Assembly: GCF_016756775.1 (NCBI RefSeq)
Contig: NZ_JAERMU010000005.1
Location: 62,001-126,000, forward strand
DNA: 64,000 bases
Direction of reading: 5' to 3'
From: Dryocola clanedunensis subsp. sulfonylureivorans
Lineage (GTDB): Bacteria > Pseudomonadota > Gammaproteobacteria > Enterobacterales > Enterobacteriaceae
In this document: piece by piece, positions 6,713 to 62,184 of the stretch
Layout of the letters: every line of letters starts with the position of its first letter
Numbering within the stretch: position 1 is the stretch's first letter
Made by a program: the position numbers and the translations under genes
Notes under the pieces: generated by a model
What the model was told of the DNA's origin: nothing
The model's database searches: none
The model's input: only the letters and a program-made list of their open reading frames with translations

Positions 6713-8056
6713 TTATTTCAGACCCGCAATGGTGCCTGCGAAGTTAGGCAGCAGTGCTTCGTGCGCCAGCAGCATGTCCCGAGCCAACCTTTCCGCGTCT
6801 TTATCGGAATGGATCAGCGGACTGAGATTCAGCGCCAGCAGCACATCATTGAATTGACCGCTTAACGCCGCTTCGCTTGCCGCGATTTCAAAGCCTTTGA
6901 TGGTGTACACCAGGCCCAGCACTTTCTCATCAAAATGTTTGATGCGCGGCGAAGGCGTTGCGCCGTCGCGACCGATAGTGCAGGTCATTTCGATAGCCCA
7001 GTCTGCCGGGATATTGTCAATATGGCCCTTGTGCGGGAAGTTAACGTAGTGCTCGGTCTGCTTGTCGTTGTAAATCGCGCTGATGACTTCGCACGCCGCG
7101 TCGGAATAGTACGCACCGCCACGCAGCTCCAGCTCTTTAGGCTTCACGTCCAGATTTGGATCTTTATACAGCTCGAACAGCTGCTTCTCGACCTGCTGTA
7201 CCACCGTTGCACGAGCGCCGCCTTTGTAGAACTCGCCCATTTCGATCGCCAGCATCTCTTTTGGCTTGAAGTAGTAAAGCAGATAAGAGCAAGGCAGCAG
7301 GTTCAGCGAACGAATCAGCCCTTCGCTGAACGGCAGGTCAAAGATGTTTTTCACACCGCTTGGCTTCAGCGTACCGGACGCCACGCCGTCCAGCAGTTCG
7401 GCAAAACGTGATTCGCCGTTAACCAGCACATCACGGATAAACACCAGGTGGTTCAGGCCGAACAGATCGATGTTCAGCTCGTCCTCCGGCTTCACCTTCA
7501 GCACGTCCTGAATGAACATCTTCATGCCCACCGGGATGTTGCACACGCCGATAAACTTCTTGAAGTTGGTGTGGCGGAAGACGGCTTCCGTCACCATACC
7601 GGCCGGGTTGGTGAAGTTAATAACCCAGGCGTTCGGGCAGATTTCTTCCACGTCTTTAATGATGTCGAAAATCACCGGAATGGTGCGCAGGCCTTTGAAC
7701 AAGCCGCCCGCGCCGTTGGTCTCCTGGCCAAGATAACCCTGGCTTAGCGGAATACGCTCGTCCAGCTCACGCGCTTTTAACTGCCCTACTCGCAGCTGGG
7801 TGGTGACAAAATCAGCGTCAACCAAAGCTTCGCGGCGATTCAGGGTTTTGTAGATAGCAATCGGGACACCCGCATGTTCCACCATACGCAGACAGAGGTC
7901 GAAAATAATATCCTGCTTCTCTTTTCCGGCTTCAACATCCACCAGCCACAGTTCCGTGATGGGTAATTCGTCGTAACGCTTAATAAAACCTTCAAGTAAT
8001 TCTGGGGTATAGCTGCTTCCGCCACCAATAGTGACCACTTTCAGTTTTTTGCTCAT
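6713..8056 (-). CDS. chbF: 6-phospho-beta-glucosidase / diacetylchitobiose-6-phosphate hydrolase ChbF (GH4)
   Basis: A 447-residue family-4 glycosidase that cleaves mono-deacetylated chitobiose 6-phosphate in the cytosol. GH4 enzymes use NAD+ and a divalent metal in an unusual oxidation-elimination mechanism. The NAD+-binding loop [16 protein letters not shown] is at residues 9-24. NFTNPAG and GVCNIP carry the substrate and metal Cys region, and FGLNHL supplies the metal His. Length is close to E. coli ChbF (450). It follows chbR by 98 bp on the same strand. The family and pathway calls are firm. Confidence 0.95.
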
Positions 8057-8154
8057 AGGAACTCCCGTACAATCTCATTGCACTATAAATTAAAGACCGC
8101 GTTATAGATGAATAAACGATGATTAAATTTAATCTGAATGAATTCACCTACAGA

Positions 8155-8994
8155 CTAGTTATTGATACTGCACAATTGCTTGCGGTAATGCTTTGGCGTG
8201 AATGACGTTAGCTTCTTAAAGTTTTTAATAAACATGCTCGGGCTGCTGTAACCTGATTCAAAAGCAATATCAGTCACCGAGTAATTGGTTATCTCCAGCT
8301 GCTTTTTAGCAAAATCAATGCGGATTTCATTAATAATCTGCATCGGCGTTTTGCCATAATGACGCTGGGTTGCGCGAGTCAGATACTCCTGCGACTTCCC
8401 GGATAACTCAACCATATTGGCCAGCGCTTTATCGCCAAAGCGAGCTTTGTCATGCATTTTCTCGACGGTAATCTTCAGCCACACAGGAATATCCGTAATC
8501 ACTTCAGATTCCCGATGGTGGCGTAACCGATTAACGATATAAAAGGTCACCACTTCTAAAAACTCATTAAACTCCCCGTTTCTGAAGTTTAGCGAGGCAA
8601 TCACCGATTCAATATAAGTCAGGAATTCATTCTTAACCTGGTAAACCTGTGATGCCACAAAGCGCGGTGGTAATAACGGTAAGTAGTGCTGTTCAAAAAA
8701 CGCTTTGCTGATACCCACATTTAATATTCTGGTGGCACCAAATTCATAATAGCTCTGGTGGTTAGATCCCAGCGGGATAAAAACAAAATCTCCGCGCTCT
8801 AACAGCACCCGCTTGCCGTTAATATCCTGGTAATATCGCCCGGTCAGCACTACGGTAAATTCGTAGTAGTCATGTTCATGCAGCCCGGAGATGCTCTCTA
8901 CTTTGTTGTAGATAAAAACGTGGAAATTTTGACCATCGAAGAGTTGATTTTCGCGTGCTGTCTTGATTTCCATGCTCAGTACCGGTGTCTGCAT
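8155..8994 (-). CDS. chbR: Chitobiose operon regulator ChbR (AraC family)
   Basis: A 279-residue regulator with an N-terminal cupin-like sensing domain ([19 protein letters not shown]) and two C-terminal AraC helix-turn-helix motifs, the second in [21 protein letters not shown] followed by FTPKHYRK. In E. coli it represses the operon without inducer and activates it with CRP once deacetylated chitobiose phosphate is made. It lies inside the operon it controls, 14 bp after chbA, so its supply is coupled to operon transcription. Confidence 0.94.
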
Positions 8995-9008
8995 TATGAC
9001 TCCCTACG

Positions 9009-9411: not shown

Positions 9412-10770
9412 TTAGAATTTCAGTGCGTTCGCAATATCTTCTTCGCTTTCTTCTTCTTCGATGACCGCCTGCGCTTTGTTCGACAGGATGACGAATGGCA
9501 TGTAGACCAGCGTCGAAACCCCCAGGTTGAACAGCGCGACTATCAGGGCGGCAATGCTGCCGTTAGAGTTGAAGAAGGCGCCAAGGCCGGTTGGCATCAC
9601 CCACGGAGCCAGGTTTGTCACCGGTGGAATAATGCCCATGGAGTACGCCGCGAGCGTGATGGCTGCCAGAATCGGCTGGATCAGCACGAACGGGATGAAC
9701 ATCACCGGGTTCATGATGATTGGCAGACCGAACAGGATTGGCTCGTTAATCTGGAAGATGCCGGAAGGCAGCGCCAGCTTAGCCACCTGCCGATGGTCAG
9801 CGCGGCGTGAGACAATAAAGATAGCGATGATAAGACCCAGCGTCGCCCCGGAACCGCCCAGCAGGATGTAGGAGTCGAGCATTGGTTTTGCCCAGAAGTG
9901 GAACTGTTTACCGGCGTCGATTGCTGCCTGTACAGAACCATACTGGTTGTAGATAGCAATGTTCTCCAGCGCCCACGGGGTCATGATGCCGTTATCCAGC
10001 GCGGTCAGCGCCAGTGAACCATGCACGCCGAAGAACCACAGCAGGGAGTTGAAGATTACATACGCCCAGCCTACAACGGCCCCCATCGACGCCAGCGGCG
10101 TTGAGATGGAGTCCATAATGATCTGGTGGAAGTTACTGCCGTAGCTGGCCAGCAGCCAGGAAATAATCCCGAAAATAGACAGAATAATAAAGCCTGGAAT
10201 GATCGCCGAGAATGAACGAGAAACGGAGGTCGGCACGCTGTCTGGCAACGTAATAACCCAGTTGCGGCGAATAACAAAGGTAAACAGCTCTGCGACAACC
10301 AGACCAATAATAATACCAGAGATAATATTCTGACCGCCTAACCAGTTAGCACCAACGGCATAAGCTTCGCCCACGCTATATGGGGTGACGGTCATAAATG
10401 CAGCGACGGATAATAAGCCTGCTGCCATTGGGTCGACTTTCCTTTCCTCAGCCAATGCCATGCCAATGAAAAAAGGAGCCATCAATGACATTATGCCCAA
10501 CGTACCGTTGTACACGTTGCCGCCGATGGCTTTTAACCCATTGAGGGTTTCAATAGTCGAGGGATCTAAACGAACACCTAAAGAATAAAAGAATGAACCA
10601 GCACCAAAACTTAAAAATACGTTATTGATGAGAACAAACATTGCCCCCGCCAGCGTTAACGGCATTAACTTAATAAAACCATTTTTAATTGCGTTAACGT
10701 GGGGTTGTTTTCCTATTTTGACGGCAAAAGGAAGGAGTACCTTTTCAAGTGAATCAATGACTTTACTCAT
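9412..10770 (-). CDS. chbC: PTS enzyme IIC, N,N'-diacetylchitobiose permease
   Basis: A 452-residue inner-membrane permease with about ten hydrophobic helices that brings chitobiose across the membrane as it is phosphorylated at C6. The family signatures are present: the N-terminal [21 protein letters not shown], the substrate-site region [14 protein letters not shown] and the [14 protein letters not shown] loop. The acidic C-terminal tail ([11 protein letters not shown]) is cytosolic. It is translated 85 bp after chbB, with the ChiX-like pairing region in between. Confidence 0.95.
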
Positions 10771-10825
10771 TTGCAGTTTCCTTTAATGCCGCCGGGTCGG
10801 CGGCCAGGGTGTGTAAGGTCGTTCT

Positions 10826-10854
10826 TTGACGGAAAAATAAAAACAAAAATGAAT
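10826..10854 (-). promoter_or_regulatory. ChiX small-RNA pairing site (trap) in the chbB-chbC spacer
   Basis: The DNA strand opposite the mRNA reads TTGACGGAAAAATAAAAACA followed by AAAATGAATT, which resembles the internal part of ChiX (TGACGGCATAATAATAA then AAAAATGAAATT, recalled from memory). The chbBC message can therefore pair over much of this stretch. In E. coli and Salmonella this spacer traps ChiX when the operon is induced, which frees chitoporin (chiP) mRNA. A GC-rich hairpin, GCCGCC-GGGTC-GGCGGC at 10788-10804, lies nearby. The match is seen; the function is by analogy. Confidence 0.65.
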
Positions 10855-10855
10855 T

Positions 10856-11179
10856 TTAATTATTTGCTGCTGCTTTCTTGATTGACGCGACGGCCGCTTT
10901 CAGAACACCGAGTCCATCAACTTTGCCGTACATTGCCGAGTCAATAACTTCAACCGGCTTGTTCGGTAATATTTTTTGAATTTCTGGCAGCATGTAAGCA
11001 ATTTGTGGGCCGAGCAGAACCAGATCCGCTACGCCGCCCTTTTCGCCTGCCAGGGTTTCAGGAAATGCTTCAATAATGACCGGAACCTCATACTTCTCGG
11101 CCTGGGCCTTCATTTTAGACACCAGAAGAGAAGTGGACATGCCGGCGGAGCAAAACAGGTAGATAACTTTCTTTTCCAT
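10856..11179 (-). CDS. chbB: PTS enzyme IIB, N,N'-diacetylchitobiose-specific
   Basis: A 107-residue IIB protein carrying phosphate on Cys10 ([20 protein letters not shown]), from ChbA to the incoming sugar. The fold is Rossmann-like, with the conserved [10 protein letters not shown] stretch. The ATG at 11179 is used because it follows GAGGATTTC and matches the family start; the reading frame stays open 19 codons upstream. It is the first gene of chbBCARFG. Confidence 0.94.
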
Positions 11180-11240
11180 GATGAAATCCTCATATTCCAG
11201 TAGGTTGCAGGTCAGACAAAGGTCCTTCTTTATCATTGTG

Positions 11241-11256
11241 TTGACGGGCCAATAGC
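11241..11256 (-). promoter_or_regulatory. Second ChiX-complementary stretch in the chbB 5' leader
   Basis: The plus strand reads TTGACGGGCCAATAGC, which equals the 16 nt at the start of the ChiX terminator stem as I recall that RNA. The chb mRNA, transcribed from the minus strand, would thus be perfectly complementary over 16 nt in its leader, about 60 nt before the chbB start. I know of no described ChiX site here. The call depends on my memory of ChiX. Confidence 0.4.
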
Positions 11257-11294
11257 CGAAAATTTAAAAGTACTGATTGTCTCTGCTTGAGTCG

Positions 11295-11323
11295 AGTATA
11301 CGGCATCGCAGTAGACCAGGATA
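11295..11323 (-). promoter_or_regulatory. Probable chb operon promoter
   Basis: Read on the minus strand, TATACT at 11300-11295 is a good -10 hexamer. The -35 position (TATCCT at 11323-11318, 17-bp spacing) is poor, as expected for a promoter needing CRP and ChbR. It predicts a leader of roughly 110 nt. Confidence 0.4.
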
Positions 11324-11403
11324 ATTCTTGTGATTCAAAAATTGTCTCTCCTTGACCAATCATTTTGACAACCCTCACATTTCGGGTAAATAATTCGCGC
11401 AAA

Positions 11404-11431
11404 TAAAAAAGCCCAAACGGAGTTTGGGCTT
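11404..11431 (-). terminator. phoH: Rho-independent terminator after phoH
   Basis: The perfect inverted repeat AAGCCCAAAC / GTTTGGGCTT with a three-base loop, followed on the minus strand by TTTTTTATTT, lies 23 bp beyond the phoH stop codon. Confidence 0.9.
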
Positions 11432-11453
11432 TTCAAATCGTTAACAATCAGTA

Positions 11454-12242
11454 TCAATCGTAAGCGTTTAACGTCCTCTGGCACAGCGCCGAGCGGACAC
11501 AATCCTGCTTGCCAAATCTGACTACACCCACCATCTCATCTTCTTCAAAGCGCGCCAGCGCATCGCTAAGACCAGACTGCACACCCGCAGGTAAATCACA
11601 CTGCGTGATGTCGCCGTTGACGATAACCGTGACGTTTTCCCCGAGGCGAGTCAGGAACATTTTCATCTGCGCTGCGGTAACGTTCTGCGCCTCGTCAAGG
11701 ATCACCACCGCATTTTCAAAAGTACGTCCGCGCATATAGGCGAACGGCGCAATTTCAACTTTACCGATTTCGGGACGCAGGCAGTACTGCATGAAAGACG
11801 ACCCCAGTCGCCGCACCAGGATGTCGTACACCGGGCGGAAGTAAGGAGCGAATTTTTCCGAAATATCCCCGGGCAGGAAGCCGAGATCTTCGTCAGCTTG
11901 CAGGACCGGTCGGGTGACAATTATCCTGTCGACATCCTTATGAATCAGGGCTTCAGCGGCTTTCGCCGCGCTGATATACGTTTTACCGCAGCCGGCTTCA
12001 CCGGTGGCAAATATCAGCTGTTTTCTCTCGATGGCGTTAAGATAGTGCTCCTGAGCTTCGTTTCGCGCGGCTATTGGCGAGTTGTCGCGGCAATCTCTTG
12101 CCATGCCAATAGATTCCACGCCGCTCATCTGCACAAGCGATGTGACCGATTCCTCTTCACGTTGCCTGTGGCTCCGCGAATCTCGTCTCAGCACACGTTT
12201 TGCTTCACGACGAGCTTTGATCACTGCTTTCTGTCTTCCCAT
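11454..12242 (-). CDS. phoH: PhoH, phosphate-starvation-inducible P-loop ATPase
   Basis: A 262-residue cytosolic ATP-binding protein of uncertain biochemical role; PhoH2 relatives have RNA helicase/RNase activity. Walker A is ATGEAGCGKT and Walker B is VVILDEAQN, with the SF1-like VIVNGDITQCDLP motif after it. The start MGRQKAVIKARREAKR is chosen because AAGGTG stands seven bases before this ATG. The frame is open a further 93 codons upstream to 12521, and E. coli PhoH has been listed at 354 residues, so a longer form is possible, although that upstream part looks unlike a conserved domain. In E. coli the gene is in the Pho regulon. Confidence 0.9.
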   Translation of the reverse strand: MGRQKAVIKARREAKRVLRRDSRSHRQREEESVTSLVQMSGVESIGMARDCRDNSPIAARNEAQEHYLNAIERKQLIFATGEAGCGKTYISAAKAAEALIHKDVDRIIVTRPVLQADEDLGFLPGDISEKFAPYFRPVYDILVRRLGSSFMQYCLRPEIGKVEIAPFAYMRGRTFENAVVILDEAQNVTAAQMKMFLTRLGENVTVIVNGDITQCDLPAGVQSGLSDALARFEEDEMVGVVRFGKQDCVRSALCQRTLNAYD

Positions 12243-25283: not shown

Positions 25284-26531
25284 CTATTTACCGGCCACCG
25301 TCTTGTTCAGCACTTCGGTAAATTTATCCCACGGGCAAAAACCATTCGCATCCGTCGGGCAGCCGGCGAGCTGCAATGTGACGCGCTGCGGCGGCTGCTG
25401 CAGGCTTAAGACTTCGCCTTTTCTCAGCTGATCGCTACTCTGATAGACGTATTCCACCTTCATCAGTTCACGGTTAGCATTTTGGTCGTGCCAGCGCTGG
25501 AACATAATCTTGCCGCCGATAGGCGTACGTTCGTTCTGCTCGGGCAGCTGATAAGGCTTAAAGTCCAGCGCCGTCAGCAGCGAAGCGATGTTCGAGTCAT
25601 GCCCCACCAGCAGGGTCATTTTCGGCCCTTTCTCCGTCTGGCCCGCTAACGCCTTCTGAATATATTTCACCAGCGGTGCGGCAACGTTGCGGGCCACCTC
25701 CGGCGAGGTAAACAGCGTATCCTGATAGCCGTTTTTCAGCTGGGAAAGGACCTGCCACTGTTTGTCAGTTTTAATTTGCCCCCACGCCACCTGATCCAGC
25801 GGGAAGCCTTCGTAATACTGCAATGTAAAAGCATCAACCAGCGAATTGCCTACTTTTAGCGGCCCACTGACGCCCGGCTCTTCGGTAGCGTTGGCGCTGA
25901 ATTTGTCCTTCGATGCCGTTAAGTCACACTGCTGCTTCTCTTTACAGGTTGGTGAGCTGCTGTAGGCGGTGACCTGTTCCAGCAGCTTATAGCTGTCGTC
26001 CAGCTTGTAGTGTTCGCGCTGGGTTTCCATCGCCTTAACCGCGGCCTGTTTAAATTCAGGCGAGTCATTGGTGATGACCGGGTTAAACGTTGGATCCATG
26101 GTGCCCATTTTTTCCTGATGATGGACAGGCACGTCACAGCCGGGGAATGCACCGGTGATAAAGAACTGCGCGGTGGCGACGGTGCGTTGCAGGCTGTTAG
26201 CATAGGCGTAAACACTCTGCGGCGTCGGGCACTCACCGCTCTTCACCAACCCCTGCTGCGCCAGCCATTCACGCATGTAGTGGCCCATATAGACCTCCAG
26301 CACGCCCCCTTTGGTGGTGAGCTGTCCGCCGGGAACGTCCCATTCAGGCCACGATTGCGCGGTGGATTGCTCCAGCACGCTGCCGTTATTGGCCAGCGGC
26401 GCGCGCAGGTTGTGGCGACTCATCAATAAAACCTGCTCAAGCTTGTAGCCATCCGGCGTGGCCTCAGCCTGCACCAGGCCTGGGGTAAAACAGGCCGTCA
26501 TCAGCAGCGAGGTGATTATTTTTTTATTCAT
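25284..26531 (-). CDS. agp: Agp, periplasmic glucose-1-phosphatase (histidine acid phosphatase)
   Basis: A 415-residue periplasmic enzyme that releases phosphate from glucose 1-phosphate and shows some phytase activity. The Sec signal ends VQA-EA. The phospho-acceptor motif is MSRHNLRAP (residues 37-45) and the proton-donor region is [13 protein letters not shown]. Six Cys are probably paired. E. coli Agp is similar in length (413). araE lies upstream on the same strand, 108 bp away, enough for a separate agp promoter. Confidence 0.95.
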
Positions 26532-26639: not shown

Positions 26640-28058
26640 TTATAGCCCAATATCCCGCAGCTTTTCCCCGGACATCAACTTCTTCTCGATGTTTTCAAGC
26701 GTCACGCCTTTGGTTTCCGGGATCAGCCAGTAGGTAATCCCGACAAACGCCAGGTTCAGCACGGTGTAAATCCAGAAAGTAGAAGCGGCACCAAAGTTAT
26801 CCAGCAGCGTCAGGAAGGTCGCGCCAATAATCATATTGGAGACCCAGTTGGTGGTCGTTGAACAGGTGACCCCGAAATCACGGCATTTCAACGGCTGAAT
26901 TTCCGAGCAGAGGATCCAGACAACCGGTGCGGCACTCATCGCATAACCCGCGATGCACATCATTGTCATACCAACAGCCAGCCAGGAAAGCCCGCCTGAA
27001 GCCGCGCCGCTGTCAACCTGCATCAGGCAGTAGCCCAGCACCAGCGTGCCCAGCGCCATCACGGTAAAACCAATTTTTAATGCGGGCTTGCGTCCGTTTT
27101 TATCGACGGTGAATACAGCGATAAAAGTCGCAAACATGAAGGTTAAGCCAACCACCACGGTCGCTATCATCTGCTCATGGGTTGTGCTGAACCCGGCCAT
27201 TTCGAAGATTTTCGGCGCGTAATACATGATGATATTCATGCCGGTGAATTGCTGCATCGCCTGTAGCAACATCCCCAGGTAGACCGCACGCCTGACGTTG
27301 CGGTTACTTTTGAACAGCGCCCACCCACCCTGTTTGACCTTCAGGCTCTCGCGAATTTCGTTCAGCTCTTCACGTGCCTTTTCTGAGGTATCGCGCAGCA
27401 TGCGTAGCACTTCCTCCGCCTTCACGTGTTGGCCCTTCGCCGCCAGCCAGCGCGGACTATTTGGCAGGAAGATCACCATCACCAGCAAAATGACGGCAGG
27501 CAGCGCCAGCACGCCGAGCATCGCTCGCCAGTTGCCGCTGTAGCTCAGCGCGGTATCAGACAGGAAGGCCAGCACGATGCCAAGCGTCACCATCAGCTGG
27601 TACATGCTGATCATTTTCCCGCGGACCTTTTCCGACGCCATTTCAGACAAATAAAGAGGAGCCGTGTAAGAGGCTATCCCTACCGCGACCCCAAGTATCA
27701 CGCGGGCAAAAAGCAGAACCTCAAGATTGGTGGCAAACGCGGATCCAAGCGAACCTGCGATAAACAAAATCGCCCCGGCCAGCAGGCTGTACTTGCGCCC
27801 CAACCGATGAGACAGCCAGCCATTAAATAGCGCGCCGAGCGCAGCGCCCAGCATCATGCTGCTGACCACCCACTCCTGAGCGCGGCTGGATAAGGAGAAA
27901 TGGTCGGTCAAAAACGGCAGCGCACCGGCAATCACACCGATATCCAGACCGAACAGTAATCCGGCAACCGCGGCAGAGACTGAGACGAACATATTCATGC
28001 GGCGAACGTTACGTTCATGCGCTTGCTGGATTAGCGGGGCATCACTGACATACGACAT
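26640..28058 (-). CDS. araE: AraE-type arabinose:H+ symporter (MFS, sugar porter family)
   Basis: 472 residues, the same length as E. coli AraE and near-identical over long stretches. Twelve membrane helices are expected; sugar-porter signatures include [22 protein letters not shown] and the C-terminal [12 protein letters not shown]. It imports L-arabinose with a proton. Sites resembling AraC half-sites and a CRP site lie upstream. In E. coli araE stands alone elsewhere on the chromosome, so its place beside agp and a ROK/MFS cassette marks a rearrangement. If a second araE exists in this genome, this would be a paralogue. Confidence 0.9.
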
Positions 28059-28191: not shown

Positions 28192-28556
28192 ATTACACAC
28201 TGTCGAGACTGGTGAAAAAAACCCGTCAACCATTTATATTTAAAGATAAAAATTTTAAACATTATGATACATGGGAAACAGTTAACTTAAATGGATATGG
28301 ATGATTTTCTCTATCAATGTGAATAAAACAAAGGCCACCTGAATTACGTGCGGCGCATGACAAGACGGTAATGATCCAGATAAAGGCAAATAACCCTCAA
28401 ATAAGTCACACCAGACAAGCTGCACGATAACAACTGAGATGAAGTAACCCTCTCTCCAGGAGATCATTTTTTAACCTGTTTTGTGATCCACTCCAAAAAT
28501 AGACAAAGCAAACTATATGCGCACTTAAAAAGCATTTAACTCTCACTAATACGATG

Positions 28557-28620
28557 TTAGTTTGTTTTTTAGACACATCATTGCCGATTAAACGCTCAAT
28601 TAGTTTTGAATACAAACTAA
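28557..28620 (+). promoter_or_regulatory. Putative operator of the ROK regulator (TTAGTTT inverted repeat)
   Basis: TTAGTTT-N7-AAACTAA at 28600-28620 is a perfect 7-bp inverted repeat ending just before the ribosome-binding site of the ROK gene. A further half-site, TTAGTTTG, lies at 28557-28564 and a reversed one, CAAACTA, at 28509-28515. The arms are those of XylR-type ROK operators in Gram-positive bacteria (TTAGTTTGTTT...AACAAACTAA, recalled). Auto-repression is the likely role. Confidence 0.6.
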
Positions 28621-28631
28621 GGAGGTACGTC

Positions 28632-29819
28632 TTGAACCTCAATGTTCCCAATACGTTACGACGGATGAACGCTTCTGTCGTGCTCAATGTGATTCGTCAA
28701 AATTCACCGCTTTCACGCGCTCAGATCGCCAAGCTAACCGGGATCACGAAGGCCACCGTTTCTGAAATAGTCAGCGACTTACTGGATGAGAAAATTATCT
28801 ATGAGAGTGGGTTCAGCGAAACAGGAGGGTTAGGTCGTAAAGGAGTGCTGGTAAATTTTGATCCTGACCACGGGCTTGGAATTGGTATTGACCTGGGAGG
28901 AACGAAAATTACTTTCTCGCTGTTTAATTTAAACGCAGAAATATTAGCCCAACGTCAGGAGCCCACTTATCCGGTCACCACACGCATTGAATTTATCGAC
29001 AGGTTTAGTGCAAGTATTCAGGCATTTATTGAATATCATCAAGTTCCCCGGGAAAAATTAAGAGTCATGGGTATCGCGACGCCAGGCATTGTTAATCATC
29101 TTAGCGGCGTCGTTTTAGAAGGTTCGCCAAATCTCCCCGAGTGGGACAACATTCCTCTCGCCGCAGAGCTGAGCAGCAGGTTGAATATCCGGGTAATTCT
29201 GGAAAATGATATTCGTGCGGCTCTTGTCGGGGAGATGTGGCGCGGTAAATGTCGGCATGTGCATAGCGCGGCGTTGATCGGGATAGGTACAGGGCTGGGC
29301 GCAGCGTTGCTTGTCGATGGAAAAATCATCCGCGGCGTTAATAACGCAGCGGGTGAGATTGGATACATGATGTTTGAGCGTAGCCATTTGAGCCAGAACT
29401 GGCGAAATAAAGGTTGCTTCGAGAATTACTGCTCGGGATCGGGTCTATCCGGTCGAATAGAAGAGCTAAGTGGCGCCTCAATGTCGGCGAAAGAGATCCT
29501 ACAGGCGGCAGCCAGCAGGGAACATTTGCCCAATCAGGTGGTTGAAGAACTGGCAGATTATCTCACCATCGGCATCATTAATATCGTCAATATTGCCAAC
29601 GTTGAGAAAATTATCCTTACTGGCGGCGTTGCTCAATCAGCTGCACTCTTTCTGCCACGTGTGCAGGCTAATCTCGATCGGCATCTTTTTGCTAATACCC
29701 GGGTTTTTGTTGAACTTTCAGAGCTGAAAGAACAGGCACCGTTATATGGAATTGCGATGTTGGCATTAGACGTCGTTTACCCTTCCATTCATTTTATGCC
29801 CGATACCCAGATCAATTAA
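28632..29819 (+). CDS. ROK-family transcriptional regulator (NagC/Mlc/XylR type)
   Basis: A 395-residue regulator. Residues about 8-60 form a winged helix-turn-helix (NTLRRMNASVVLNVIRQNSP, then LSRAQIAKLTGITKATVSEI), followed by the ROK sugar-kinase-like fold with GIGIDLGGTKITFSLF. The usual ROK zinc motif CxCGxxGCxE is degraded: only NKGCFENYCSGSG remains, so it is probably not a kinase. The start is a TTG at 28632 with AAGGAGG six bases before it; the frame is open 26 codons upstream but lacks such a site. It leads a 3-gene plus-strand cassette. The inducer is unknown, probably a sugar or sugar phosphate. Confidence 0.88.
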   Translation: MNLNVPNTLRRMNASVVLNVIRQNSPLSRAQIAKLTGITKATVSEIVSDLLDEKIIYESGFSETGGLGRKGVLVNFDPDHGLGIGIDLGGTKITFSLFNLNAEILAQRQEPTYPVTTRIEFIDRFSASIQAFIEYHQVPREKLRVMGIATPGIVNHLSGVVLEGSPNLPEWDNIPLAAELSSRLNIRVILENDIRAALVGEMWRGKCRHVHSAALIGIGTGLGAALLVDGKIIRGVNNAAGEIGYMMFERSHLSQNWRNKGCFENYCSGSGLSGRIEELSGASMSAKEILQAAASREHLPNQVVEELADYLTIGIINIVNIANVEKIILTGGVAQSAALFLPRVQANLDRHLFANTRVFVELSELKEQAPLYGIAMLALDVVYPSIHFMPDTQIN

Positions 29820-29852
29820 ATACAGTCGTTATAAACAATACAGGAGTCAACT

Positions 29853-31118
29853 ATGGCGGGGATACATCTGCACCCTCACGATATTCTTGACGAAGGCGTC
29901 GGACCGATACTCAAGCGTATTGGTAAAATGAAAACGGTAAAGGATCTCTTTATCGAAGTGAATACCATCTTCGAACGTAATCCTTATCCTGTTGGTTCGT
30001 TGCCGCATAATCCTAAAAATTCATTTATTCAAGGTACAGGGACCCTACACGTCAAAATAAATGCTCAATCACAGCGTCTTTATCAGCGAATTGATCCAAC
30101 CATTGATCAGGGAAACGATCCGCTGAAAATATTGAAGGATGCGACTGAAGGTAGCACCTGGCGGGTGATCCCCTGGGCAAATATCCTGAATGGGGATTTC
30201 GGCGGTACGGTTGCTGAAAATCAGGTTATTGATTTTAATGGTGATCCTATTGAACATTGGCTATGCCCGAACGGGCCGGATGTTATTGAATTCTGGAAAA
30301 TGACCTTTCGCGCCATCAAAGAACAATATGGCTATTCGACTTTTTTAATTGACCGTATTCGTTATCCGGACTGGGCTGGCAAAAACGTCCGGCCTGGCGG
30401 GCTGTTTACCTGTTTTTGCCCTCATTGTCAGCGAGAAATGGAACAAACGGGGATCAGCGTTGCGGCCGTTCGTGGAAAGCTTGCGACGCTCGCGGCGCTC
30501 TTAAATAAAGGATGCTTTGATGAAACAGTCGATGCCTTACTCAAGGATCCTTTATTGCAGCGCTGGCTAGCCTTCCGACAGAACAGCGTGTCACGTTTCG
30601 TACAGCGCTTGCTGGCAGAAATTGATGAAATGAGTGACGGAAAAACAGAATTATGGCTCGACTTATGGCCACCCGCCTACGCCTGGATTTTGGGTCAGGA
30701 TTACAGCGCGCTAACTCAGTGTTCATCCACCCTCAAACATTTCCCATATCATAAGCTTGGCGGCGGCGCCGATGTTCAAGGATTGATTGAGTATTTTGCC
30801 CATGACCCCCAGCAGCATGAACGTGCATTCACCGCTTTTAAGCGGTTATTTAATCTGCCCTATGCTCTTAGTTATCGGCAATTTAAGGCCAACGGTTTTC
30901 CCATCGCGTTTGTGCAACAGCAAAATAATCTGGTGCGCAAACAATCCCAGCCAGGGACGTTTATTTATAGCGGAATTCAAATGTGGAATATTGCCCCCGC
31001 GCCTCTACTTGAAGCAGTTGAAGCCGCTGAACAAAGCGACTGTGATGATCTTCTTTACTACTGCTATGGATGGGCTGAGGAAGAGCTATTTGATTCGATG
31101 AGCCGTCACGGGCGATAG
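29853..31118 (+). CDS. Unassigned 421-residue protein, possibly a TIM-barrel glycoside-hydrolase-like enzyme
   Basis: I do not recognise a characterised family. There is no signal peptide or membrane segment, so it is probably cytosolic. The segment LCPNGPDVIEFWKMTFRAIK, then STFLIDRIRYPDWA, then the Cys cluster FTCFCPHCQREME recalls predicted TIM-barrel hydrolases, in which an Asp at a strand end (here in LIDRIRYP) is followed by a CxCxxC element. A second acidic strand, KTELWLDLWPPAYAW, and YKxK-like aromatic stretches near the C-terminus (YSGIQMWNIAPAP) fit a sugar-binding barrel. CAGGAG precedes the ATG. It lies between the ROK regulator (33 bp) and an MFS permease (28 bp), so it probably acts on the imported compound. 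The enzymatic role is inference. Confidence 0.6.
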   Translation: MAGIHLHPHDILDEGVGPILKRIGKMKTVKDLFIEVNTIFERNPYPVGSLPHNPKNSFIQGTGTLHVKINAQSQRLYQRIDPTIDQGNDPLKILKDATEGSTWRVIPWANILNGDFGGTVAENQVIDFNGDPIEHWLCPNGPDVIEFWKMTFRAIKEQYGYSTFLIDRIRYPDWAGKNVRPGGLFTCFCPHCQREMEQTGISVAAVRGKLATLAALLNKGCFDETVDALLKDPLLQRWLAFRQNSVSRFVQRLLAEIDEMSDGKTELWLDLWPPAYAWILGQDYSALTQCSSTLKHFPYHKLGGGADVQGLIEYFAHDPQQHERAFTAFKRLFNLPYALSYRQFKANGFPIAFVQQQNNLVRKQSQPGTFIYSGIQMWNIAPAPLLEAVEAAEQSDCDDLLYYCYGWAEEELFDSMSRHGR

Positions 31119-31146
31119 TCTAAAAATACATTCGGAGGTATCAGAT

Positions 31147-32313
31147 ATGGCTAATAAACAAAAGTGGAAAGTCTTTTTCCTGCTATTTGTCACCATGTTC
31201 CTGCTTGGTGGAATACAGAATACCAAAGGGCTGATCCTTGAACAGGTTCAGCATGATATTAATCTCGATATTGGCCAGATCGGTACGCTGATAGTCGTGT
31301 TCCAGATAGGATTTTTAGTAGCAAGCTTGTTGACAGGTTATTTGACGGACAAGAAAGGCCTGAAGATCATGATGCTTACCGGCTCCGTGATGATGGCGGC
31401 AGGTCTTATTGGCACAAGTCTGGCATACGGTATCCTTTTCTTCTTTGGATTCTATTTGATTATCGGCGTCGGTATCGGATCAATGCTGGTATCGATAGTT
31501 ACGGTCATTCCGACATTCTACAAAGAGAAAAGCGGTATGATGTTTAATATCTCCAACGCGATGTTTGGCGTGGGTATGATTGTAACGCCTCTTATTTTGC
31601 AACAACTTTTCTCTCATGATATCTCATGGCGTATTTTTTATGTTGGAATTGCTGTCATTGTGGCGATCATCATTATAGTGCTTGCCAGCCTGAAACTGGA
31701 TAAAGCACAGGGCATGGAGATGCATCTTTCTGATTTTGTTTGCCTGCTCAAACATGGACGATTGATGCTGGTGATCTGTTTTATTGTCTTCTATGTTGCA
31801 GCCGAAGCGGCATTTTTAAACTTCTTCCCTATCTTCTACGGTTCCCTGGATATCAGCGGGTCATCTACGCAAGATAAGATGGCGACGGCGGCTTATGTGA
31901 TATCCAGCTTCGCCGTGCTGTTTACCGTCGGACGCTTTATCGGTGGTTTTATTAATATGAAGTTGGGAGATCGTAAGACGTTAATTTTATTCTCGCTTTT
32001 CTCACTGATTTCCATTGTTATCAGCCGACAGTTTGCGGAGAGTTTTGTCTATCTGTTTATGGTGTTTGGTTTTTCTATGTCAGTGCTTTTCCCAACCGCC
32101 TCAGCCGCTGCGACAAAGCTAACGGATAAGAGTGGTTCCGCTATGGGGCTTATTTATGTCGCGTCAGGTTTGGGCGGAGCCTTCGCGGGCTGGCTGATTG
32201 GGCAGGTTTCTCAGCTGTACGGCGTATCAGTAGGATTCAACTTAATCATTGGTTTTGTTGCCATCTCATTTATCCTTACCCTCTTTATCCGTGAGAAAAC
32301 GGTCACTTCATAA
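31147..32313 (+). CDS. MFS permease of the ROK cassette, substrate unknown
   Basis: A 388-residue membrane protein with about twelve hydrophobic helices and the MFS loop motif in LTGYLTDKKGLKIMMLTG (loop 2-3) and its partial repeat GGFINMKLGDRKTLILFS in the second half. It resembles fucose/glucose-porter-like MFS members (LGGIQNTKGLILEQVQHDINLD near the N-terminus) but I cannot name the substrate. GGAGGT stands before the ATG. It is the last gene of the ROK operon, so it probably imports the compound that the 421-residue protein acts on. Confidence 0.85.
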   Translation: MANKQKWKVFFLLFVTMFLLGGIQNTKGLILEQVQHDINLDIGQIGTLIVVFQIGFLVASLLTGYLTDKKGLKIMMLTGSVMMAAGLIGTSLAYGILFFFGFYLIIGVGIGSMLVSIVTVIPTFYKEKSGMMFNISNAMFGVGMIVTPLILQQLFSHDISWRIFYVGIAVIVAIIIIVLASLKLDKAQGMEMHLSDFVCLLKHGRLMLVICFIVFYVAAEAAFLNFFPIFYGSLDISGSSTQDKMATAAYVISSFAVLFTVGRFIGGFINMKLGDRKTLILFSLFSLISIVISRQFAESFVYLFMVFGFSMSVLFPTASAAATKLTDKSGSAMGLIYVASGLGGAFAGWLIGQVSQLYGVSVGFNLIIGFVAISFILTLFIREKTVTS

Positions 32314-32385: not shown

Positions 32386-32408
32386 CTGGTTGATACCAGC
32401 AGTTTTTT
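32386..32408 (+). terminator. Weak terminator after the MFS gene
   Basis: CTGGT-TGAT-ACCAG hairpin followed by CAGTTTTTT, 72 bp past the MFS stop codon. The stem is only five pairs. Confidence 0.45.
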
Positions 32409-32491
32409 AACATTTCCTGCCGCAATGACCAGCAGGCGGACGAGTGCGCTCAAGCAATACTTAATAACATGCCGAAAAGTCGCAGCAACGA

Positions 32492-32523
32492 AAAAGCCCC
32501 AGCTTATTTCTAAGCTGGGGCTT
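32492..32523 (-). terminator. serT: Rho-independent terminator after serT
   Basis: AAGCCCCAGCTTA / TAAGCTGGGGCTT perfect inverted repeat followed by TTTTCG on the minus strand, 6 bp beyond the tRNA 3' end. Confidence 0.9.
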
Positions 32524-32529
32524 AAATGT

Positions 32530-32617
32530 TGGCGGAAGCGCAGAGATTCGAACTCTGGAACCCTTTCGGGTCGCCGGTTTTCAAGACCGGTGCCTTCAAC
32601 CGCTCGGCCACACTTCC
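32530..32617 (-). tRNA. serT: tRNA-Ser (anticodon UGA)
   Basis: An 88-nt class II tRNA. The minus strand reads GGAAGTGTGGCCGAGCGGTT at the 5' end, has anticodon loop CTTGAAA with TGA as anticodon, a long variable arm, GTTCGAATC as T loop, and the acceptor end CGCTTCC-GCCA with CCA encoded. This is serT, which decodes UCA codons (UCG and UCU more weakly). In E. coli serT lies near yccA; here an oppA-like gene lies between them. Confidence 0.97.
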
Positions 32618-32767: not shown

Positions 32768-34396
32768 TTAGTGCTTTTTGATGTACATATCTTTGGTGTA
32801 GTAGAACGCGAGGTTGTTTGGCGCATAGCCACCGACATAGGGTTTTACCAGCTGTGCCAGAACATAGTGGTAAACGGGGATGGCAGGAACGTCTGTTGCC
32901 AGCCGATCTTCAGCCTGCTGATAGTATTTACCCCGCTCTGCCACATTATCCGCTTTTGCTGCGTGCTTAAGCGCATCGTCAAACGCCGCGTTGCTGTACT
33001 GGGAGGTGTTCTCAGAATCGCCGGTTCGGAAGTTATTGAGAAACGTTGCGGCATCATCATAATCTGCAATCCATGCATAGCGTACCGCGTCGAAGTTGCC
33101 GCTGTGCATAGTATCGAGCATGGTTTTCCATTCCTGATTTTGCAGCTTCGCCTCCACGCCCAGCTTTTTACTCCACATTGAGCTCACCGCAATGGCTATG
33201 CGCTTATGGCTTTCGGAAGTGTTGTAGAGCAGATTGAAGCTCAGCGGATGGGATGCATTAAAACCAGCCTCTGCCAGCAGTTTTTTAGCCTCTGCGACAC
33301 GCTTTTCATGACTCCAGTTCGCATAGTCAGGGGATTTCAGCTCCACGCCACCAATTATCTTCTGGCTGAAGACCCAGGCCGGGATCTGCCCCTGCCCCAG
33401 CACTTTCCCGGCAATAATGTCTTTATCCAGAGCCATATTTAATGCACGGCGAACCCGGGCATCATTAAACGGTGGTTTGGTGGTATTAAACTCGTAGTAG
33501 TAAGTCGCCAGTTTTGGGGTGACATGAACCTGATCGGGAATGGATTTTTTCAGCGAGGCGAACAGCGTCTGGGGTATCGTAAAAACAATGTCTATTTCAC
33601 CCGCTTTGTAGCGGTTGACATCCGCCGTTTCAGAGCTGATTGGCAGATAGGTCACCTGATTAATTACGGTATGGCTGTTATCCCAGTTCTGCGGATTACG
33701 CTGAGCCACAATCTTCTCGTTAACGACCCACTGCGATGGCTTATACGCCCCGCTGCACACAAAGTTTGCGGGCTGGGTCCATTTCTCACCAAACTTCTTA
33801 ATAATAGCTTGATTGACGGGAACTAACGACGGGTGCGCCAGCATGGCAAGGAAGGAGGCTGTGGGTTGAGTCAGGGTTATTTGTAGCGTGTTAGCATCCA
33901 CCGCCTTGACACCCAGGGTATCTAACGACTTTTTACCTTCTGCAATGTCGTGCGCGTTAACGACATGCATATTTCCCAGATAGCTCGCGTAAGGTGAACC
34001 CGTTTTAGGGTCAACCAGCCGCTGCCAGCTCCAGACCACATCCTGCGCGGTAATTGGCTGCCCGTTTGACCATTTGATACCCGGCCTGAGATGGAACGTC
34101 CAGACGGTGCTCTCCTTCTCTTCCCATTTATCCGCCAGCCGCGGCTCAATGCTGCCATCGTTTCTCACGGAGACCAGGCCATCGAAGAAATCGCTTATCA
34201 GGTTAAACTCAACGTCACTTTCAACCTTATGAGGATCAAGGGAAGCTGGCTCACTACCGTTATTGCGAACCAACTCCTGTTTTGCTGCCAGTTCGGTCCC
34301 TGCGGGTACGGTCGCGGCCCATGTTCCACACGCAGTAGCTGTTAAACTGAGCGCGACAAAAGTTTTGATCAATGTGTTGTGGTTGTTTGCTTTCAT
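32768..34396 (-). CDS. Orphan OppA/MppA-type periplasmic peptide-binding protein
   Basis: A 542-residue SBP family-5 protein with a Sec signal ending TWA-AT. The body follows OppA and MppA throughout: QELVRNNGSEPASLDPHKVE, WTFHLRPGIKWSNGQPITAQ, VVNEKIVAQRNPQNWDN, and RLVKPYVGGY-like text (QLVKPYVGGY) ending DMYIKKH. Such proteins bind oligopeptides or murein peptides for an ABC importer. No permease or ATPase genes are next to it, so, like MppA, it may use the Opp translocator encoded elsewhere. It lies between serT and yccA, where E. coli has none. Ligand unknown. Confidence 0.88.
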   Translation of the reverse strand: MKANNHNTLIKTFVALSLTATACGTWAATVPAGTELAAKQELVRNNGSEPASLDPHKVESDVEFNLISDFFDGLVSVRNDGSIEPRLADKWEEKESTVWTFHLRPGIKWSNGQPITAQDVVWSWQRLVDPKTGSPYASYLGNMHVVNAHDIAEGKKSLDTLGVKAVDANTLQITLTQPTASFLAMLAHPSLVPVNQAIIKKFGEKWTQPANFVCSGAYKPSQWVVNEKIVAQRNPQNWDNSHTVINQVTYLPISSETADVNRYKAGEIDIVFTIPQTLFASLKKSIPDQVHVTPKLATYYYEFNTTKPPFNDARVRRALNMALDKDIIAGKVLGQGQIPAWVFSQKIIGGVELKSPDYANWSHEKRVAEAKKLLAEAGFNASHPLSFNLLYNTSESHKRIAIAVSSMWSKKLGVEAKLQNQEWKTMLDTMHSGNFDAVRYAWIADYDDAATFLNNFRTGDSENTSQYSNAAFDDALKHAAKADNVAERGKYYQQAEDRLATDVPAIPVYHYVLAQLVKPYVGGYAPNNLAFYYTKDMYIKKH

Positions 34397-46453: not shown

Positions 46454-47064
46454 CGTCGTTTACGCTGCTCGTACTGTTTGTACCATTCAGCTAGCTCCTG
46501 GCGAGTTCTCGCCGGGAGCGCTGCTTCATGAATCCCGGATATTGCTCCCGCCAGGGATAAAAGAATTTTCAGGCCAACGCACTTTTTAACGGTGCGCAAC
46601 TTAATCCAGCTACGCCGTGCTCCGTAAGCATACAGCGTGCGGATGTCCGTAATACCTGCTTCCCAGAGCATAATTTCCAGATTTGCAGACAAGTTGGGCA
46701 AATCTTTCAAACGCTTCTGGAGCTTACGTCCTGAACGTTCCCGACGGGCGCTTCTTAACGCTTCCGATGAGAGATGCAGCAGTTTATTCGAATCCTCCCA
46801 AAGCTCATCATCAACGCGGTAATAGTTCAGCGCTATGGGGCGGCCGCGTTTGCTGAAAATCAAAGGCGGAGAAGCTTTCGTCACAAAATAACTTTCACAC
46901 TCTTCGCATGCCCGCAGATAAAGTTCCCCTTCAGAAATCATGGCAAAAACCACAGTTTCAACGGAAAGACTGTAGCCACCGAACTGCGCATGATATTCAA
47001 CATCGCCCAGAGGTGAGAGATATTCTTGCGACTGATGTATCCTTTCGTAAGACTTCATACTCAT
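46450..47064 (-). CDS. sxy: Sxy/TfoX, CRP-S gene activator (competence regulator)
   Basis: A 204-residue protein with a TfoX N-terminal domain (EYHAQFGGYSLSVETVVFAM) and a helical C-terminal TfoX domain (LPNLSANLEIMLWEAGITDI). With CRP-cAMP it turns on DNA-uptake genes with CRP-S sites. The chosen ATG (MSMKSYERIHQS) has AAGGA seven bases upstream; ATGs at 47058 and 47085 are alternatives. The sequence drifts from E. coli Sxy in the middle, as expected for this quickly evolving protein. Confidence 0.92.
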   Translation of the reverse strand: MSMKSYERIHQSQEYLSPLGDVEYHAQFGGYSLSVETVVFAMISEGELYLRACEECESYFVTKASPPLIFSKRGRPIALNYYRVDDELWEDSNKLLHLSSEALRSARRERSGRKLQKRLKDLPNLSANLEIMLWEAGITDIRTLYAYGARRSWIKLRTVKKCVGLKILLSLAGAISGIHEAALPARTRQELAEWYKQYEQRKRR

Positions 47065-47171
47065 GAATATATCCTTACTTTTCATGGATTAAATTACGCT
47101 TTATTTATTACCCCTTCCCGTAACAGAAAAATAAGTAACCTGACTGCCGGCTGCAACAGCAAATTAAAAAA

Positions 47172-47197
47172 TGCGCAATTTGTATGAAAAAATTGCG
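47172..47197. other. Inverted repeat in the sxy-sulA divergent region
   Basis: TGCGCAATTT and AAAATTGCGA face each other across a 6-base spacer about 110 bp before the sxy start. The TGCG/CGCA ends resemble CRP-S sites (TGCGA-N6-TCGCA) in content but not in spacing. It could be a hairpin in the sxy leader or a regulator site. Confidence 0.35.
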
Positions 47198-47241
47198 AGA
47201 CGTCTTCCGAAATTTTGATTGATCTTTGCCCGAACAGGCAT

Positions 47242-47261
47242 TACTGTATATGCATACAGTA
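47242..47261. promoter_or_regulatory. LexA box of sulA
   Basis: TACTGTATATGCATACAGTA is a perfect match to the SOS box (TACTG-TATATATATA-CAGTA layout with CTG-N10-CAG). It lies 21 bp before the sulA start codon, so LexA would cover the promoter. Confidence 0.95.
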
Positions 47262-47282
47262 ACCCACCAGGCGGGATTCACT

Positions 47283-47792
47283 ATGCATACTAATAACTAC
47301 CGAACTCATCTTGCTCATCGCGCGACAAAAGCGCTCTCCCCTGCCGCTACACAGGCAGACCATGAGATCAGAGGATTGATTAGTGAAGTGGCCTACAGCG
47401 AAGACCAGCCATGGATGACTCAACTGTTGCTGCTACCGCTTTTACAACAGCTCAGCCAACAATCACGCTGGCAGCTTTGGCTCACGCCAAAACAAAAATT
47501 GAGTCGCCAGTGGGTTGAGGCGTCAGGGTTACCTCTTGCCAAAGTCATGCAGGTGAGTCAACTGGATGCACTTTTCACTGTTGATGCTATGGTAAAAGCA
47601 CTGGAGACAGGAAATTACAGTGTTGTTATCGGCTGGTTATCGGATGAACTGACAGATGAAGAGCATTATCGACTGACTAATGCAGCTGAAAAAGGTAATG
47701 CGATCGGGCTCATTATGCGACCGAATCGCCCCCAGGGAACCGCTAACAGACCACGCAGTGGGCTAAAAATTCATTCTAGTTTGTATCATTAA
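47283..47792 (+). CDS. sulA: SulA, SOS-induced cell-division inhibitor
   Basis: 169 residues, as in E. coli. SulA binds FtsZ monomers and blocks Z-ring assembly during DNA damage; Lon removes it later through the C-terminal SLYH tail, present here. [20 protein letters not shown] and [17 protein letters not shown] are conserved, while the N-terminal 35 residues are not. The start follows GGCGGGA; the open frame continues upstream through the LexA box but is not likely to be used. ompA lies downstream on the same strand. Confidence 0.96.
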
Positions 47793-47980
47793 GTAAATTT
47801 AAGATAAATCCTGGAACTTTTTATGTGATTCCTATAACGCCCTGTGTTTATTCGTGAATCCCCTTCGCAAGCCGCTTATGGCGCGACTCCAGGCCGAATC
47901 TCAAGCTTAATTTACCGCCAGAGATGTTAGCAAATGTGTACGCCAGTCGTTTTTTTTCATATGCCTGACCGAGTTCACAC

Positions 47981-48008
47981 TTGTAAGTTTCTAACTACGT
48001 TGTAGACT
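47981..48008 (+). promoter_or_regulatory. ompA promoter
   Basis: TTGTAA at 47981-47986 and TAGACT at 48003-48008 with a 16-bp spacer match the E. coli ompA promoter as I recall it, and give a start at about 48016. The 190 bp between sulA and this promoter show no other feature. Confidence 0.75.
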
Positions 48009-61483: not shown

Positions 61484-62022
61484 ACGGCTTGATCAAGGCT
61501 AAGGCTATTGCCAACAGGCAGGGGTCTTAGTCTGTCGTTCATCACTTTAATAGCGTCGCCAAGCTGCATAGTGCGGCCCGCAAGCTGCAGGCCGGGCTGG
61601 GCAAGTAAACAAAGTGCCGCGTTGTCACCTGTTTCAACAACCAACAGATTAACCTGCTGCATACCTTCGCTTACCCAGACACAGGCGGCATCACCTGGCG
61701 CCGGTTGCCAGCATTCACCGTGGGAGATAAAGTGCCAGCTTTTAGGCATTTGCGGTTTAAGATAGCGAATCGCCACCAGCGCGTTTAACACCAGTTCGGC
61801 ACGCTGCTCATTGCTGACCTCAAGCTCACGGCACTTCTCATCAAAGGAGAAGAACAGCGCCGCATCATCCACACAAAATCCTGAAGTTTCAAAGGCATCC
61901 GGGGTTAGCATTTTACGTGGAAAACGAGAACGGAAAATCATACCATTGGCCAAATCGAGCATCATACGATCGTGCTCTTCATCGAAATACCAACGCCAAT
62001 TATCGTCCGGTTTTATCCGCAT
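61480..62022 (-). CDS. zapC: ZapC, FtsZ-bundling cell-division protein
   Basis: 180 residues, as in E. coli (YcbW). It binds FtsZ and promotes lateral contacts of protofilaments at midcell. [20 protein letters not shown] and [15 protein letters not shown] are conserved. It overlaps the convergent ycbX end by four bases and follows pyrD on the same strand after a terminator. Confidence 0.94.
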
Positions 62023-62141
62023 AATGACTTACCCTTTTGTCTATTCCGCAAACTTAAAACATCCTTATCGCTACCTGATTATCAGGTCATATTAATAAAA
62101 GACCAATATGTATAATTAAGCAACATCTACGGAATATAAAA

Positions 62142-62171
62142 CAACCAGGGCTGAAAATAAAGCCCCGGTTG
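62142..62171 (-). terminator. pyrD: Terminator after pyrD
   Basis: CAACCAGGGCT / AGCCCCGGTTG stem with GAAAATAA loop; TTTTATATT on the minus-strand side. 14 bp past the pyrD stop. Confidence 0.85.
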
Positions 62172-62184
62172 TCTGTAAATCGTT

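Follow-up and report, generated by a model that had tools for sequence, protein, structure and literature searches.

A cassette of Enterobacteriaceae with a ROK-family regulator encodes a remote relative of GHL10/GHL6 barrels with a putative role in amino-sugar scavenging

We analyzed a three-gene cassette within a 64,000-nucleotide stretch (hereafter, the window) of the genome of Dryocola clanedunensis subsp. sulfonylureivorans, an assembly of 5.1 Mb in 88 contigs. Its three plus-strand open reading frames (ORFs), separated by gaps of 33 and 28 bp, encode a ROK-family regulator (ROK), a middle protein (MID), and a transporter of the major facilitator superfamily (MFS). An earlier note, made from the sequence alone, had described these genes as a compact, probably acquired uptake unit under its own operator, with a ribosome-binding site ahead of each gene. 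The layout was as described, including the purine-rich ribosome-binding sites (read by eye), and our results support a self-regulated, probably acquired unit. We conclude that ROK, MID, and MFS form a single operon behind a perfect operator palindrome (Table 1).

Table 1. Features of the cassette and its surroundings (window positions)
Feature	Position	Strand	Remark
ROK-family transcriptional regulator, 395 amino acids	28632..29819	+	TTG start
MID, 421-amino-acid TIM-barrel protein, remote GHL10/GHL6 relative, putative intracellular amino-sugar conjugate-processing enzyme	29853..31118	+	
MFS transporter, 388 amino acids, probable importer	31147..32313	+	
Operator palindrome TTAGTTT-N7-AAACTAA	28600..28620	+	perfect 7-bp arms, 0 mismatches; abuts ribosome-binding site
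Ribosome-binding site AGGAGG of ROK gene	28620..28625	+	
Partial second operator copy	28557..28577	+	3 mismatches; away from relatives' second-site position
TGTGATC, possible CRP half-site	28482..28488	+	read by eye
Terminator-like hairpin, then T run	32386..32399	+	downstream of MFS gene
tRNA-Ser (TGA), probable insertion hotspot	32530..32617	-	downstream of cassette
Sugar-porter MFS gene	26640..28058	-	separates agp from cassette
agp	25284..26531	-	upstream of cassette

The regulator has a helix-turn-helix and matches PF00480 with E 6.4e-54 (183.9 bits, over a cut-off of 22.9), in agreement with the family proposed in the earlier note, which had also observed that the zinc motif CxCGxxGCxE is missing. 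Only a GC-FE tail of this motif is left, and its sole retained cysteine is found in 20 of 21 aligned ROK sequences, missing in L020 (these counts leave out the ROK of L017, which the search motif missed). DLGGTK and the active-site loop's N-D are present in all 21 sequences, each of which also carries EIGY at the position of ExGH. The gene probably starts at TTG 28632 rather than at the first ATG (28554), because AGGAGG precedes that codon and homologues begin near the matching residue. The start previously placed at 28557 is a TTA codon and not a start; 28557 is the first base of the partial operator copy. In PMC5458393, ROK motifs are defined by DxGxT and a catalytic aspartate, Listeria NanK, a ROK-family N-acetylmannosamine kinase, shares the His-to-Tyr change, and a figure legend describes the zinc motif as visible only in E. 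coli NanK.

The cassette resembles operons controlled by NagC/Mlc-type ROK repressors, which likewise combine a helix-turn-helix and ROK domain with a palindromic operator, and NagC (NF047937) is the regulator's best NCBIfam match, although at 165.5 bits it lies far under the cut-off of 650. Unlike NagC and Mlc, the window's protein carries EIGY for ExGH, lacks the zinc motif, and heads its own three-gene cassette. The conserved DLGGTK and N-D residues, together with the lack of a separate kinase in the cassette, could suggest that ROK is both repressor and sugar kinase, phosphorylating the MID product and closing the pathway. However, retention of DxGxT is common among ROK regulators and proves nothing on kinase activity, and the altered ExGH and lost zinc motif make this dual role very improbable.

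The operator occurs as a single perfect copy within the window. Allowing up to three mismatches, we found six matches against 1.95 expected, a number reached in 1 of 100 shuffles. The operator postulated in the earlier note was further supported by related loci: upstream of all 22 close ROK genes (19 from enterobacteria, G180 contributing two, and three from Bacilli), the best site scored 12–14 of 14, always with a 7-bp spacer, and its score was matched by at most 4 of 200 shuffles per locus. This site lies 44–47 bp before the reference codon in enterobacteria and 48–72 bp before it in the three Bacilli. At the distant loci L061 and L063, the scores were 11 and 10, equaled by 7 and 20 of 200 shuffles, respectively. 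A second site, 148–150 bp upstream and scoring 10–13 (without a shuffle control), was present at 14 of the 19 enterobacterial loci, the window's locus not among them. ROK sites are T-rich on the left and A-rich on the right according to PMC4856308, a layout that the window's operator fits. From these sequence features, we infer putative autorepression of ROK through the palindrome. Other control signals were less distinct. A promoter scan returned no promoter-like site in 28300–28632, and fewer such sites in the region scanned than expected (5 against 9.2); the terminator scan was weak (8 sites in the region against 5.0 expected). TGTGATC, which may be half of a CRP site, appears at a roughly equal distance in 9 of the 19 enterobacterial upstream regions and is absent from the other 10.

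The earlier note could not assign MID to any family. This held for direct domain searches: Pfam returned no family at E<=10 for the window's protein and none at E<=0.01 for its relatives in L073 and L074, while the L061 protein matched PF02638 with E 0.0022 (17.6 bits, under the gathering cut-off of 27.9). The single NCBIfam match had E 0.12, far under its cut-off, and sequence searches of the PDB set gave no match and nothing useful, though the set holds PgaB. Profile searches, in contrast, found distant relatives among the GHL10 and GHL6 families. A profile of eight MID sequences matched 16 proteins in 398 genomes from the phylum of Calidifontibacillus: the seed, three clear relatives (G646, G716, and G597), one protein with E 6e-17 (from L064, below every cut-off), and eleven weak matches, eight of which were read and four scanned. 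Of these four, three exceeded the GHL10 cut-off and two of the three the GHL6 one as well, and the fourth was a borderline GH42-like protein. Aligning a profile of 17 MID sequences with one of nine GHL10-like sequences (hhalign) gave a probability of 99.7 and E 3e-25 over 261 columns; this comparison carries some circularity, because it was the MID profile that first brought up seven of the nine (all but the L092 protein and DigH), and just four of the nine were checked as exceeding the GHL10 cut-off. We presume DigH to belong to GHL10.

The barrel-like pattern noticed earlier in MID agrees with a predicted structure (predicted local distance difference test (pLDDT) 77.8, predicted template modeling (pTM) score 0.82) and with a fold search, whose best matches were PgaB, beta-amylases, GH18 chitinases, and GH42 enzymes. 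The top match was 4p7q, the PgaB glycosidase domain (E 5.5e-9, TM score 0.59 by query). Some of these data weigh against the kinship, besides the circularity mentioned above: DigH alone reached a probability of only 8.6% against the MID profile, the quality of the model is moderate, with residues 39–72 under pLDDT 50, and Cwp19 was not named among the 50 fold matches listed. Overall, the profiles and the predicted fold lead us to conclude that MID is remotely related to the GHL10/GHL6 triosephosphate isomerase (TIM) barrels. With GHL10/PF02638 (represented by Cwp19) and GHL6/PF14871, it shares the barrel, G-DPL, W-CP, (I/L)D-x-I-R-Y, CFCP, and, at strand 7, Y-(S/A)-G-I-Q. It differs from them in HxHD and HFPYHKLGGGAD, which are exclusive to MID among the aligned sequences, in having no Pfam match of its own and no visible signal sequence, and in its position within an uptake operon. 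The PgaB C-terminal domain (GH153), although the best fold match, is only 10% identical and belongs to a periplasmic polymer enzyme. MID, in contrast, begins at the first barrel strand with no signal peptide visible by eye, and is therefore placed in the cytoplasm. As reported, the GHL10 enzyme Cwp19 cleaves peptidoglycan (PMC6016235), DigH acts on denuded peptidoglycan glycans (PMC12288456), PgaB cleaves deacetylated poly-N-acetylglucosamine (PMC5933820), and the GHL families were mostly uncharacterized as of 2017 (PMC5765458). We found no description of the cassette or of the MID family among the papers listed in the literature searched, a scope that excluded most subscription papers and all bioRxiv preprints.

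The putative active site departs from that of these relatives. Cwp19 has D195-D196-Y197, and DigH likewise has D-D-Y. MID carries Asp167 at the position of D195, which is Asp or Glu in all 9 aligned sequences, and Arg168 at the position of D196, the GHL10 active-site aspartate at strand 4. By the Cwp19–PgaB equivalence, Arg168 would also correspond to the catalytic Asp474 of PgaB (B. bronchiseptica numbering), and Gly374 falls at the position of Cwp19 Gly328 and of a PgaB glutamate. Because the GHL10 aspartate is an arginine in MID, its catalysis cannot be transferred from GHL10, a point that counts against the overall interpretation, and the hydrolase or lyase identity raised in the earlier note is a putative one. 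In 17 hand-chosen MID sequences, two of them nearly identical, the invariant positions include His7, His9, Asp10, Glu41, Asp167, Cys187/189/192, and HFPYHKLGGGAD. His7, His9, and residues 295–307 are kept in 17 of 17 and are missing, save Tyr299, from the aligned GHL10 sequences and from the Rhizobium and haloarchaeal relatives. Such a pattern could be expected had the barrel been refitted, through HxHD at strand 1, Arg168, and the invariant HFPYHKLGGGAD loop, to serve as a lyase, an isomerase, or an enzyme dependent on a metal, its substrate being an imported sugar acid or amino sugar, and the glycine at position 374 adds to this argument. Yet the conserved Asp/Glu at 167 could serve as a catalytic acid, and we regard a non-hydrolase as rather unlikely. 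Judging from kinship, glycosidic-bond cleavage is the most likely chemistry for MID.

We next consider how the three genes are distributed. Of 392 genomes searched in the family, 15 (counting the window's own) encode MID, representing 8 of 154 genera; it was found in 0 of 5 other genomes of the same genus. Named Klebsiella and Raoultella strains are among the Enterobacteriaceae that carry it. The earlier note had said that a lack of co-occurrence of the three genes in related genomes would refute it, and no such lack was seen. At E 1e-20, the MFS partner accompanied MID in 18 of 18 positive genomes and turned up in 0 of 13 negative ones, the positives being the above 15 and G395–G397 (the genomes behind three named loci), and the negatives 13 of the 377. 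The order ROK-MID-MFS was intact in 17 of the 18, counting L029, where an overlapping frame hid the MID ORF and the MID match lies between ROK and MFS. In the eighteenth genome (G180), two copies are cut off within MID where their contigs stop, and two MFS ends are found on separate contigs. Pairwise distances were strongly correlated across 105 pairs from 15 loci (ROK-MID 0.945, MID-MFS 0.907, ROK-MFS 0.959), leaving out L019 and L029 (all three genes), the G180 copies, and L024, which shares the contig of L023. Clustering placed the genes flanking the cassette in several distinct sets, indicating that the cassette has moved. Thus, the trio is a co-inherited cassette found at differing chromosomal sites.

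In Gammaproteobacteria outside the family, the search returned MID in 1 of 369 genomes, namely the window's own, and no wider spread was found. Within the class of Calidifontibacillus, two of 398 genomes matched at E 1e-10, both known seeds. At E 1e-20, matches were found in one of 39 genomes from the order of a Brevibacillus metagenome-assembled genome (the seed) and in three of 249 from the order of Calidifontibacillus (seed included).

The cassette is AT-richer than its surroundings, as previously suggested: its GC content is 46.1%, against a mean of 53.1% (standard deviation 2.5%) for 104 overlapping segments of the same size elsewhere, none of which is as low. Low GC was rejected as a general mark of acquisition, since in 16 other copies the cassette is within 4.4 points of its flanks. 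Further GC dips in the window, at 8001–9000 (42.5%), 47001–48000 (44.4%), and 62001–63000 (45.1%), may mark other acquired pieces. All five genomes of this genus that lack MID are homologous to the window along the yccA side (L093 shows a gap there), and the homology ends at 32487–32525, beside the 3' end of tRNA-Ser. From this comparison, we infer that the cassette was inserted at a tRNA-Ser hotspot. No convincing repeat of the tRNA-Ser end was found elsewhere in the window, where only a 12-bp match and the terminator stem were detected. In the same-genus locus L096 (4283–4374 and from 6218), about 55 bp of the tRNA-Ser 3' half appear twice, roughly 1.9 kb apart, as after the integration of a small element.

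The position given earlier, between agp and serT, is roughly right, except that a sugar-porter MFS gene lies between the cassette and agp (a name we adopt from the earlier reader). Beyond tRNA-Ser follow a gene for an OppA-like binding protein, a presumably YccA-like gene, and cptA. The OppA-like gene, which adjoins tRNA-Ser at 32768–34396, matches PRK15104 with 721 bits (cut-off 947), and its next neighbors are not ABC (ATP-binding cassette) permease genes.

Outside the family, clear relatives of MID were found in eight genomes: three named, three from the phylum profile search, and two from the search of the Calidifontibacillus order. At most of these loci ROK is kept beside MID while the transporter type is exchanged. 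L020–L022 encode ROK, ABC genes of the SsuA/TauA kind (under the NCBIfam cut-offs; L020 was scanned, L021 partly, and the others were called by clustering or by eye), and then MID. In L021 and L022, nagB directly follows MID (TIGR00502, 275 and 296 bits, cut-off 237) and is the sole nagB match in either genome. L061 and L063 encode ROK, a ribose-type (CUT2-like) permease, a binding protein, an ATPase, and MID, which is broken by an N run in L063; only the last three are visible on the short contig of L062. Of these ribose-type genes, the permease and binding protein of L061 were called by Pfam and the others by eye. In L073, MID adjoins a gene for a 596-amino-acid protein (10200–11990) for which neither Pfam nor NCBIfam gave a match at E 1e-5.

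A further setting is a same-strand run of 16 genes opened by MID, with a largest gap of 158 bp, located at L092:8713-18679 and L074:147-10013 (one genome of the Calidifontibacillus order). MID is followed by genes for DUF624, NanE, an AXE1 esterase, an RpiR regulator, and an FAD oxidoreductase; then for two permeases and a binding protein (by eye; in L074 a fourth transporter type, also ABC), a GHL10/DUF4985 protein, and DUF4127; and finally for NagZ, GNAT, a ROK kinase (Pfam only), NagB, and NagA. The scores exceed their cut-offs for nanE (307 against 189 bits), nagZ (219.7 against 207), nagB (302 against 237), and nagA (369 against 226). Clusters for muropeptide and N-acetylglucosamine salvage are built from nagZ, a kinase, nagB, and nagA, and this copy of MID opens such a run; the other copies, unlike salvage clusters, have no nagA, nagZ, or nanE beside them (murQ was not searched for). 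The earlier note had proposed a carbohydrate-use pathway. A role in sugar use is supported, but the neighbors in these three genomes point to amino sugars and not to carbohydrates in general.

Could MID instead be a glycosidase of neutral-sugar or of plant or aryl glycosides, with the nag neighbors incidental or a later specialization? The ribose-type transporters of L061–L063 would suit such substrates, and tblastn with NagA, NagB, NagZ, and NanE was positive only in L021, L022/L075, L074, and L092. Remote MID relatives in Rhizobium and haloarchaea (38 plasmid records; 22–24% identity among the 20 listed) also occur in settings other than the cassette at the three loci read, including Rhizobium loci with Gfo/Idh/MocA oxidoreductases and sugar phosphate isomerases. 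However, it is nagB, nanE, nagZ, and nagA that share a run with MID in three genomes, and both the closest fold and the characterized kin act on amino-sugar polymers; we therefore find neutral glycosides unlikely. Of the remote loci, a Rhizobium plasmid (L068:3727-9164) carries a sugar ABC importer, two sugar phosphate isomerase/epimerase genes, two Gfo/Idh/MocA oxidoreductases, and the remote MID relative, annotated as hypothetical. Remote MID-like proteins were also seen near creatininase-family genes, on a haloarchaeal plasmid (L070:2930-8131, as annotated) and at L064:7632-9751 (creatininase-like, under the cut-off).

The transporter contains an MFS_1 domain (PF07690, E 1.7e-35, 123 bits over a cut-off of 33.4), and no NCBIfam model exceeded its cut-off; the best matches below it were TsgA and lactate and oxalate/formate carriers. 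The fold and a weak likeness to drug exporters, among others, would be compatible with an efflux pump, in which case MID would inactivate a toxic glycoside. Such a detoxification unit is highly improbable, given that binding-protein-dependent ABC importers replace MFS in other genomes and that its best NCBIfam matches are the carriers named above.

Taken together, our results favor, at about even odds (a probability of roughly 0.5), a horizontally acquired, ROK-repressed amino-sugar scavenging operon in which MID acts on an imported conjugate. According to this model, ROK would sit on the palindrome and block its own operon until an inducer, either the substrate or the amino-sugar product, binds. 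The MFS protein would import a small amino-sugar conjugate, which cytoplasmic MID would cleave or convert, yielding glucosamine, N-acetylglucosamine, or the 6-phosphate. The product would then reach glycolysis through core enzymes: a kinase or the phosphotransferase system, NagA, and NagB. We presume that enterobacterial core metabolism supplies these remaining steps, such that three genes would suffice there, while in some Bacilli the run also includes nagB or a complete nag set. Since MID, mostly with ROK, stays while the transporter varies, MID should act on the imported compound, and since some Bacilli add NagB, or a kinase with NagA and NagB, glucosamine or N-acetylglucosamine, free or phosphorylated, would be the most economical product.

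We hold our confidence to this level because the active site of MID differs from those of the characterized relatives compared, and several further findings pull in the same direction. Amino-sugar-phosphate genes share a run with MID in 3 of the 8 outside genomes, a raw count, and two of the three, L021 and L022, are related operons. The tblastn searches were negative within 10–17 kb around every enterobacterial copy, in the rest of the window, and around MID in L020/L076, L061–L063, and L073. Dependence on NanE was considered and rejected: among genomes of the family, NanE exceeded its cut-off in 10 of the 18 with MID and 7 of the 13 lacking it (one of the 7 only as two fragments), and as it is about equally frequent in both groups, a product specific to N-acetylmannosamine is unlikely.

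A bolder and more tentative proposal, which we would sooner doubt than accept, is that MID founds a new enzyme family that uses the GHL10 barrel but has a catalytic apparatus of its own, dedicated to an unrecognized small amino-sugar conjugate. This nutrient would be common enough for a regulator–enzyme pair to have crossed between phyla and to have taken on no fewer than three unrelated kinds of transporter (MFS, SsuA-type ABC, and ribose-type ABC). Were these readings true, a refitted active site would be added to the GHL families, and an unannotated family would represent a step in amino-sugar scavenging in Enterobacteriaceae, including Klebsiella and Raoultella, and in some Bacilli. Given the conserved operator and the exchangeable transporters, a compound that releases ROK from DNA would point to the substrate of MID.

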